Positions 45,871-48,560 of a stretch of DNA of 64,000 bases are shown piece after piece. The stretch lies in assembly GCA_007120165.1 (NCBI GenBank), contig SKOH01000021.1, positions 1 to 64,000 on the forward strand, read 5' to 3'. Origin of the DNA: Clostridiales bacterium (GTDB lineage: Bacteria > Bacillota > Clostridia > Peptostreptococcales > T1SED10-28). The notes beneath the pieces are model-generated. The model was not told the origin of the DNA and did no database searches. It worked only from the letters and a program-made list of their open reading frames with translations. Every line of letters starts with the position of its first letter. The first letter of the stretch is position 1. Made by a program: the position numbers and the translations under genes.

Positions 45871-46551
45871 ATGGCGAAGAAAAAAGTATACGGAGTAAAA
45901 AATGGAAAAATTCCCGGGGTCTATCAGACCTGGCAGGAATGCGAAAAACAGATTAAGGGATACTCCGGAGCGGAATATAAAGGTTTTGCTGCCGAAGCCG
46001 AGGCGAAGGCATACGTCTATGGAACGGAAGTTAAGAGCTCCTTGGATTCGAAAAAGAAAAATTCAAAAAAAATTTCACTAGAAGAGGAAAAAACCCCTCC
46101 AATGTCGAATAATACTATAAAGGACCGAAATATTTTAAAAGCCTATGTGGACGGAAGTTATAACCGGAAAACGAAGGAATACAGCTGCGGCGTGGTCCTG
46201 CTTTTAAATGGAAAAGAGCTTTTGTTTTCCAGAAAAGGAAATGCCCCCCATTTGGCATCAATGAGAAACGTAGCGGGAGAACTGCTCGGCGCTCAGTATG
46301 CGATGGCCTTTGCCCTGAAAAATCAGGGGAAATTTAAAGAATTATGGATTTATCATGATTACTCCGGTATTGAGATGTGGTGTACCGGACAGTGGAGAAC
46401 AAAGCAAGCCGGAACCGAAGCCTATAAAAATTACTACCAGCAGAAGATCCGGGGACGGATAGATGTGCGATTCAAGAAGGTTAAGGCCCATTCCGGGGAT
46501 CTTTACAATGATAAAGCCGATGAATTGGCCAAGGAAATTTTAAATTTGTAA
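45871..46551 (+). CDS. rnhA: Ribonuclease H1 with N-terminal viroplasmin domain
   Basis: KKKVYGVKNGKIPGVYQTWQECEKQIKGYSGAEYKGFAAEAEA; RNase H AYVDGSYNRKTKEYSCGVVL, VKAHSGDLYNDKADELAKE. Confidence 0.95.
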   Translation: MAKKKVYGVKNGKIPGVYQTWQECEKQIKGYSGAEYKGFAAEAEAKAYVYGTEVKSSLDSKKKNSKKISLEEEKTPPMSNNTIKDRNILKAYVDGSYNRKTKEYSCGVVLLLNGKELLFSRKGNAPHLASMRNVAGELLGAQYAMAFALKNQGKFKELWIYHDYSGIEMWCTGQWRTKQAGTEAYKNYYQQKIRGRIDVRFKKVKAHSGDLYNDKADELAKEILNL

Positions 46552-46579: not shown

Positions 46580-48475
46580 GTGATGAACTTGAAGGAACAG
46601 GTAAAAATTGAGGCATCCGTAGCCAGTCACAAAGGAAATCTTTACAGTAAAAATGAAGAGAAATTTTATTTAAACGGACAGTATATGGATTTGAATCAGC
46701 AAAAAGATTCCACCAGCAAATCCGCTATCCATAATTACAAACAAAGCGTATATGGGATTGCTTCCGGGACTAAACGTGGAGCCTTAGGAGAACAGGCAGC
46801 CTTTATTACCATCGAAGTCCTGAGCCGTTATCATCTGTATCTGGAAGAAAACAGTCCCTCTTCTTTTGCTTTGAAAAAACAGCGGTTAATCGAGGAGCTG
46901 GAAAGCGCCAGGAAAAAAATCGAATCCTTTACGGATATTGAACAGGATAAAGACCTGGGAGTTACCGTTGTAGGGCTGGTGATTGATGGGAACAAAGCCT
47001 TCGGGTTTTCCGTAGGGGAAGAGGGTATTTACAAAATCAAAGAAAAAAGCATTCACCAGCTGCCTCTTACTTCCGGCAGTGAAGAGGCTTTTATTGGTTC
47101 TGAGCAGGCGATCAGTAAAATCCTGCGTACCACAGAGGAGTTTTCCATCGATGTAGAGGACCGCTATTTACTTACGTCTAAGGGAACCTACGACCCCTCC
47201 ATGGAGAAAGAATTACTAAGTCAAATTGCCTCCTTATCGACAAAAGAGAGCACCAAAGCCTTCATTAAGGAATTATTGAATAAAGTTGGTCAAAAAAATC
47301 TTACAGCCCTGCTGGTATATGTGGAGGCGTTGGAAGGGATCATGAACAAAGATCATAGCCAGGCGTTTGTCTACAAACCAACTTCCGATTCCCTGAAAGA
47401 CCCGGAGCCTGATAAGCAAAAAGACCGAAAGTCTGATTTACAGCAGGCACCGGAGGAAAAAGAAAAATCGGAGGAAAAAGGAAAACCCGATGAGAGAAGA
47501 AATATGGATGGGGCTGCTTCCCAAAATTCAGAGGAAGCCGATGATCCCGGAAAAGAGAATAAGCCAACAAAAGAAAGGGATACCGAGGAAGCTGCCGGTG
47601 AGAAGGAATTGTCCGAAGATCAGCAGCGCCACCTGATATTTGAGCAGCGGTATGCGGAAAATCAGTTGTTTTTTAATAAAAAGCCGAACAATCAGGATTA
47701 TTCATTTATCCCGGAAACGAAAGGGGAGGGCTTAAATGAGGAAACCGGGAATCCTAGGGAGGCGGCCCATTGGGATGCAGCAGATGAACAGATGTCTGCT
47801 TCCGAAGAATCTCTTATGGAAGAGTCCCTCACCGAGGAACATTACGAAGAGGAAGAAGATGGCGAAACCCCCTGGCGAACCCGATCAAAGTTTTTGCTGG
47901 TGGCCCTGCTTGCGGTTGGGGTAATTCTTATGGCTTTTGTTTTCGGCACCATTCGCAGTCTTGAACAACGAATACTGGACAGTTCCATAAGCAATATCGA
48001 GGCCGAAGAAACGGGCCAGGAACCCGATGAAGCATTGGCCGCTTCAGAAGAAGATGCTGAAGAGGAGCCCATAAAAGACGATCCGGAGTCCGGTGAAGAA
48101 GACAGTGACGAGACGGCCATAGACGAAAGTGCAGCGGAAGAGGAGGAGCCGGAGAGCGAAGAATCGGTTGAGGATGAGGAGAGTACCGAAGAAGCGACGG
48201 ACAGTGATCAAGAAAATATGGAAGAAGAAACACCAACACCAGCGGTAACGGAAGAAGCGGCGGAAGAAGAAGCGGCGGCAGCGGCACCGGAAACCGCCGA
48301 AGCGGAAGAAACCCATGAGACCTATGCAGTGCAGGGGGGAGACACGATATTTTCCATCAGTCGAAGATTTTACAATGATGGAAGCATGGTGGATGAGATT
48401 ATCCGGCTAAACAATATTCAGGATATCAATAACCTACAGGTGGGGGATGTGCTGAGACTCCCTAACCGGGATTAA
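46580..48475 (+). CDS. PP2C-like domain + TM + Glu/Ala-rich linker + C-terminal LysM protein
   Basis: PP2C-like landmarks (KNEEKFYLNG, VYGIASGTKRGALGEQAA, KAFGFSVGEEGIYKI, YLLTSKGTYD, KNLTALLVYVE), TM FLLVALLAVGVILMAFVFGTI, acidic tract, LysM ETYAVQGGDTIFSISRRFYND...NLQVGDVLRLP; GTG 46580 or ATG 46583. Confidence 0.8.
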   Translation: MMNLKEQVKIEASVASHKGNLYSKNEEKFYLNGQYMDLNQQKDSTSKSAIHNYKQSVYGIASGTKRGALGEQAAFITIEVLSRYHLYLEENSPSSFALKKQRLIEELESARKKIESFTDIEQDKDLGVTVVGLVIDGNKAFGFSVGEEGIYKIKEKSIHQLPLTSGSEEAFIGSEQAISKILRTTEEFSIDVEDRYLLTSKGTYDPSMEKELLSQIASLSTKESTKAFIKELLNKVGQKNLTALLVYVEALEGIMNKDHSQAFVYKPTSDSLKDPEPDKQKDRKSDLQQAPEEKEKSEEKGKPDERRNMDGAASQNSEEADDPGKENKPTKERDTEEAAGEKELSEDQQRHLIFEQRYAENQLFFNKKPNNQDYSFIPETKGEGLNEETGNPREAAHWDAADEQMSASEESLMEESLTEEHYEEEEDGETPWRTRSKFLLVALLAVGVILMAFVFGTIRSLEQRILDSSISNIEAEETGQEPDEALAASEEDAEEEPIKDDPESGEEDSDETAIDESAAEEEEPESEESVEDEESTEEATDSDQENMEEETPTPAVTEEAAEEEAAAAAPETAEAEETHETYAVQGGDTIFSISRRFYNDGSMVDEIIRLNNIQDINNLQVGDVLRLPNRD

Positions 48476-48513: not shown

Positions 48514-48560
48514 AAGAAAACCCTCTTGAGCCGAAAATACCGGTTCAAGAGGGTTTCTTT
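48514..48560. terminator. Bidirectional terminator
   Basis: AAGAAAACCCTCTTGA...TCAAGAGGGTTTCTTT between convergent genes. Confidence 0.75.

Follow-up and report, generated by a model that had tools for sequence, protein, structure and literature searches.

A degenerate PP2C-like domain fused to a LysM in a clostridial family: a possible wall-anchored adaptor

The PP2C fold, the LysM, the concept of a pseudophosphatase and the existence of PP2C-fold pseudophosphatases in eukaryotes are already known. TAB1 and PHLPP2 have lost metal ligands from a PP2C fold and have no phosphatase activity (PMC12002173). In Mycobacterium tuberculosis, the pseudokinase domain of MviN, once phosphorylated by PknB, acts as a recruiter of FhaA to this wall-related membrane protein (PMC12599244). 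PASTA kinases (PrkC/PknB) join a cytoplasmic signalling-enzyme fold, through a transmembrane (TM) helix, to a peptidoglycan-binding module. In the openly licensed literature we found neither a bacterial PP2C-fold pseudophosphatase nor a fusion of PP2C to LysM, a wall-binding module.

A gene in the window (the whole 64,000-nucleotide stretch of DNA analyzed here) encodes a protein that resembles these systems in part. It is like the Stp/PrpC/PstP-type PP2Cs (NF033484; PDB 2cm1, 2pk0) in fold, secondary-structure order and the N-terminal 'G..NE..FY' region, but it lacks their metal Asp residues, their phosphate-binding Arg and part of their flap, and has a TM helix and a LysM fused to it. TAB1 and PHLPP2 share the loss of metal ligands from a PP2C fold; they are not orthologues, however, have no wall-binding part and keep one metal site. 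In MviN, too, a signalling-enzyme domain that is dead forms part of a membrane protein connected with the wall, but the domain has a kinase fold, lies within a peptidoglycan-synthesis membrane protein and comes without LysM. PASTA kinases share the overall order of parts, whereas their enzyme is active and their outer module is PASTA rather than LysM. In the same genome, a PASTA kinase (L054) and an intact Stp (L053) are encoded by genes of their own, so the gene in the window is distinct from a PASTA kinase/PP2C pair, as a preliminary description of this DNA had proposed.

Gene layout and PP2C fold

The gene was present at the same locus in each of the six genomes that represent its GTDB family in the sample; five belong to its genus and one (G005) to a sister genus. 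The rest of the order sample (198 genomes) gave weaker matches only, and those inspected were intact PP2Cs. The open reading frame (46580–48475, forward strand, as are all features below) is real, with the coordinates first assigned to it, and encodes about 628–631 residues. Its start is ambiguous between GTG 46580, ATG 46583 and TTG 46589. The TTG, with a conserved ribosome-binding site upstream, is common to 5/5 genus members and ATG 46583 is replaced by ATA in two of the five, which points to TTG 46589 as the probable start. Residues are numbered here from ATG 46583.

The protein runs from a degenerate PP2C-like domain (aa 7–250; 46601–47332) into a charged, disordered linker (aa 253–342; 47339–47608; pLDDT <50) that has 14–16% identity to the G001 and G002 orthologues. 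Within the linker region lies a conserved predicted helix (aa 343–368; 47609–47686; RxxIFEQRYAExQxxFNKK), a candidate second binding or docking element; in the full-length AlphaFold2 model (pTM 0.35), docking of this juxtamembrane helix on the PP2C domain was not visible at that quality. A second linker, a single TM helix (aa 437–457; 47891–47953), an acidic tether (aa 471–575; 47993–48307; 47% D/E) and a LysM (aa 581–627; 48323–48463) follow, in agreement with the linker, single TM helix, acidic segment and single LysM reported earlier. The LysM was recognized by Pfam (PF01476, 1.1e-9; 38.5 bits, above the gathering score of 20.9) and also by a genome-level search, was modelled with a pLDDT of 83–90, and is predicted to bind peptidoglycan. 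The TM helix was present in 6/6 orthologues and the LysM in all complete ones. Because the positive-inside rule gives an N-in orientation and there is no further hydrophobic stretch, the PP2C-like domain and its linker are predicted to be cytoplasmic, with the tether and the LysM outside.

The assignment of the N-terminal ~250 residues to PP2C had been made by eye. In a Pfam scan of the window protein, PP2C_2 stayed below the cut-off (E 0.025) and LysM alone was reported. The NCBIfam Stp1 profile matched the protein at 2.6e-8 and all six orthologues (best 3.4e-11); on this Stp1/IreP equivalog (NF033484) the window protein scored 33.7 bits, far under the curated cut-off of 230 bits. Profile–profile alignment with hhalign of the six orthologues against seven canonical clostridial PP2Cs gave a probability of 98.9% (E 1.1e-17, 221 columns). 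An AlphaFold2 model of the domain, built from five sequences of its own family with canonical PP2Cs excluded, reached a pTM of 0.81 and a pLDDT of 75. With this model, the top Foldseek match in the PDB was PstP (1.0e-10; TM-scores 0.63 and 0.69; rmsd 5.1 Å), and further matches were Streptococcus agalactiae Stp, PppA, tPphA and SpoIIE. The family HMM, the profile–profile comparison and the predicted fold concur, which rules out chance resemblance: the domain belongs to the PP2C/PPM fold superfamily, clearly diverged, and the by-eye assignment is borne out.

Loss of active-site residues under purifying selection

Motif positions were read by alignment to the genome's own canonical, intact Stp. 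All four substitutions noted in the preliminary description were found in their places: NEE (aa 24–26; 46652–46660) replaces NED, SGTKRG (aa 61–66; 46763–46780) replaces DGMGG(E/H) with the bridging metal Asp turned into Ser, TSKG (aa 198–201; 47174–47185) replaces (C/T)SDG, and KNLT (aa 238–241; 47294–47305) replaces DN(I/V)T. Three further losses had escaped it: (i) the phosphate-binding Arg of RxxNED is Tyr21; (ii) GEEG (aa 145–148; 47015–47026) replaces GDSR, with its Asp turned into Glu; and (iii) the flap region (47069–47173) is ~22 residues below that of the canonical Stp, with 38 vs. 60 residues between the reference positions of the alignment. The five Asp positions (NED, DGMGG, GDSR, SDG and DN) thus read E, S, E, K and K.

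None of the five genus members has Asp at any of the five scored positions. The other four carry the same residues as the window protein except for Ala at the bridging position, Arg at SDG and Glu at DN in G001, and His in place of the phosphate Arg. The loss of the four Asp residues named at first therefore holds throughout the genus but not in G005, which retains three of them (NED, SDG and DN). G005 nonetheless lacks the bridging Asp (DGMGG is RGSIEG), the GDSR Asp (Tyr) and the phosphate Arg (Leu). These three residues are missing in 6/6 orthologues, with Ser, Ala or Arg at the bridging position, and the other ligands are missing in the window's genus alone, a pattern that suggests stepwise decay. 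From these residues, the window domain is probably a PP2C-fold pseudophosphatase and not an active PP2C phosphatase.

Between genus members, pN/pS was 0.05–0.15 over aa 1–90, 0.14–0.38 over aa 91–252 and 0.37–0.87 over the linkers. Few parts of the protein are as constrained as the N-terminal half of the PP2C domain, and the low pN/pS of this half relative to the linkers indicates a domain in use, not one in decay. An invariant stretch (ASVASHKGN...KFYLNGQYMDLxQxKDSTxK...QSVY) is the most promising candidate binding face, since it is strongly constrained while the catalytic residues are gone. A pseudogene is ruled out by the frame, open in 6/6 genomes, and by the purifying selection.

PP2C-TM-LysM proteins elsewhere in Clostridia

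The family profile was searched against 391 genomes of the class. Proteins with a PP2C-like domain, one TM helix in N-in orientation and a C-terminal LysM, as in the window protein, were found in three other clostridial families (f31, f92 and f17); they also have a low-complexity tether. The f31 protein (G388, L075) differs in keeping every catalytic residue and in having two LysMs. The PP2C domain is degenerate in the f92 protein (G562) and in f17, where the tether is Pro/Thr-rich and retention of Asp is variable. A homologue was found in 28/32 genomes of f17, and in 23 of the 24 of high quality. Nearly all of its open frames continue through the TM helix into the LysM; the exceptions are one frame with an internal stop and two that end before or within the LysM in the available stretch. 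Decay is graded in f17 (L161–L188): genera g211, g565 and g567 mostly keep the four metal Asp residues and have lost the DGMGG glycines and the GDSR Asp, and other genera lose more. Since three or four Asp residues are kept there, weak activity is possible in G005 and in some f17 members.

The architecture is thus retained both with an intact phosphatase (G388) and with a degenerate one (G562 and f17), so it appears that catalysis is eroded and the wall tether kept. Pfam revealed LysM alone in the window protein, the G005 orthologue and the one f17 member scanned, so the group would carry the bare label 'LysM protein'. The series from intact (G388) through partly decayed (f17, G562 and G005) to fully dead (the window's genus) makes two matters testable: the role of a wall-anchored phosphatase domain after catalysis is lost, and a phosphatase-fold arm of wall sensing in Firmicutes besides the PASTA kinases.

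The best tree placed the window family with G179 (80/73) and the f17, G562 and G208 forms with the intact G388 (93/74). This split of the degenerate forms would mean separate losses of catalysis; parsimony over the rows used gave four changes between intact and degenerate. Long branches were present, and the AU test rejected neither a single clade of all degenerate LysM forms (p 0.137) nor a single clade of these with G388 (p 0.271). Independent loss is the better-fitting tree, with a single clade not rejected. One might picture in Clostridia an unnamed class of wall-tethered PP2Cs that repeatedly and independently lost catalysis and whose members, now pseudophosphatases that read the state of the peptidoglycan across the membrane, regulate a Ser/Thr phosphorylation system by binding. 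We regard this generalization as doubtful; if true, the class would be the phosphatase-side counterpart of the PASTA kinases.

The G179 protein, the nearest intact relative in the tree, is a PP2C-TM protein that shares the NxxxFYLNG stretch with the window protein but is intact, has no LysM and lies in another gene context. Its gene (L043:126-1022, G179:C49) encodes an intact NNEDNFYLNG PP2C with a C-terminal TM helix within a WXG100/EssC type VII secretion locus. A link of the window gene to type VII secretion was rejected, as no such genes surround it.

Intact members of the NEDxFYxNG group, to which the G179 protein also belongs, adjoin Ser/Thr kinase-like genes in G205 and G410. Intact NEDxFYFNG PP2Cs adjoin such a gene at L100:7493-11648 and L102:8570-11404, with an FHA-like protein also present in L100; both loci are probably signalling cassettes. 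None of the LysM forms examined adjoins kinase-like genes or a type VII secretion locus, and the gene contexts of G388, G562 and f17 have nothing in common with the window locus or with each other.

Three other PP2C-TM proteins (L074, L089 and L076) have, by eye, Ig-like extracytoplasmic repeats instead of LysM; the active site of the L076 protein (G282) is degenerate. Further relatives have extracytoplasmic parts of no recognized type. A phylum-wide search with a mixed profile (A4) returned mostly ordinary PP2Cs of 230–290 residues, a result that fits homology and is of no use for mapping the fusion.

Proposed function and genomic context

We favor, with a probability of roughly 0.55, a wall-anchored adaptor in which a dead cytoplasmic PP2C domain is joined to an outer LysM on a long acidic tether. 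This reading combines the computed fold, ligand loss, single TM helix, LysM, purifying selection and wider family; the partner and the direction of signalling are what we infer from them. The LysM would anchor the protein, or report the presence or location of suitable peptidoglycan, while the pseudophosphatase would use its conserved N-terminal half (aa 8–90) to hold a partner in the cytoplasm, perhaps with the juxtamembrane helix (aa 345–364) adding to the binding. The partner would most likely be a phosphoprotein or a component of PrkC/Stp wall signalling; with the intact Stp and the PASTA kinase, the genome provides a wall-associated Ser/Thr phosphorylation system for the protein to act on. 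Wall-to-cytoplasm signalling or a scaffold had been suggested before on the architecture.

The two ends of the protein could also be coupled, with LysM engagement or wall tension altering the pseudophosphatase through the TM helix and the pseudophosphatase switching a kinase or phosphatase, for instance PrkC or Stp. The presence of both enzymes in the genome, a predicted helix that runs unbroken through the membrane (aa 431–475) and the kinase neighbors of some intact relatives of the domain are compatible with such a transmembrane sensor. However, ~105 residues of acidic tether and a low-confidence linker before the TM helix look too flexible for mechanical transmission, and no kinase adjoins the gene. 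A tether this long and acidic fits a flexible anchor better than a rigid transmitter, and we consider the sensor unlikely.

Morphogenetic proteins such as SpoVID and SafA typically have a C-terminal LysM. The window protein has one too and spo0A was found in the genome, so a sporulation or division protein could be envisaged whose LysM takes it to the wall of the septum or spore and whose PP2C fold serves as a structural dock with no role in signalling. This seems rather improbable, given that the immediate neighbors include no recognized sporulation or division genes and that no similarity to SpoVID or SafA beyond the LysM was noted in the Pfam and NCBIfam scans.

Residual or altered catalysis with other metal ligands (Glu26 and Glu146) is very unlikely. 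The change from Asp to Glu at two positions in the genus, and the Asp residues retained in G005 (three) and in some f17 proteins (four), would leave room for it. In the genus, however, Lys occupies the SDG and DN positions (in G001, Arg at SDG and Glu at DN), and a pair of Lys residues at metal-binding positions would be expected to repel metals; the non-acidic bridging position, the lost phosphate Arg and the shortened flap also argue against activity. It is hardly credible that only the TM-LysM anchor matters and that the PP2C part survives as a remnant of evolution: several related architectures have degenerate catalytic residues, but strong purifying selection acts precisely on the PP2C domain.

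The adaptor reading gains no wall or signalling clue from the neighboring genes (RNase H, FAD dehydrogenase and MoaD). An RNase H gene with a Cauli_VI (RNase H1 N-terminal) domain (45871–46551) ends 28 nt upstream and is the direct upstream neighbor in 6/6 genomes; FAD-dehydrogenase and RNase H genes precede the gene wherever flanking sequence is present. There was no sign of phage or plasmid origin: viral contigs and plasmids held no relatives, and chromosomal synteny is conserved. A terminator-like hairpin (48514–48559; dG −28.1 kcal/mol, z −6.0), not among the results of a consensus terminator scan, lies between the gene and a convergent MoaD-like gene and is probably a two-way terminator. 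The named relatives are metagenome-assembled genomes of 'Clostridiaceae/Clostridiales bacterium' with 'Sed' in their isolate names, which we take to stand for soda-lake sediments.
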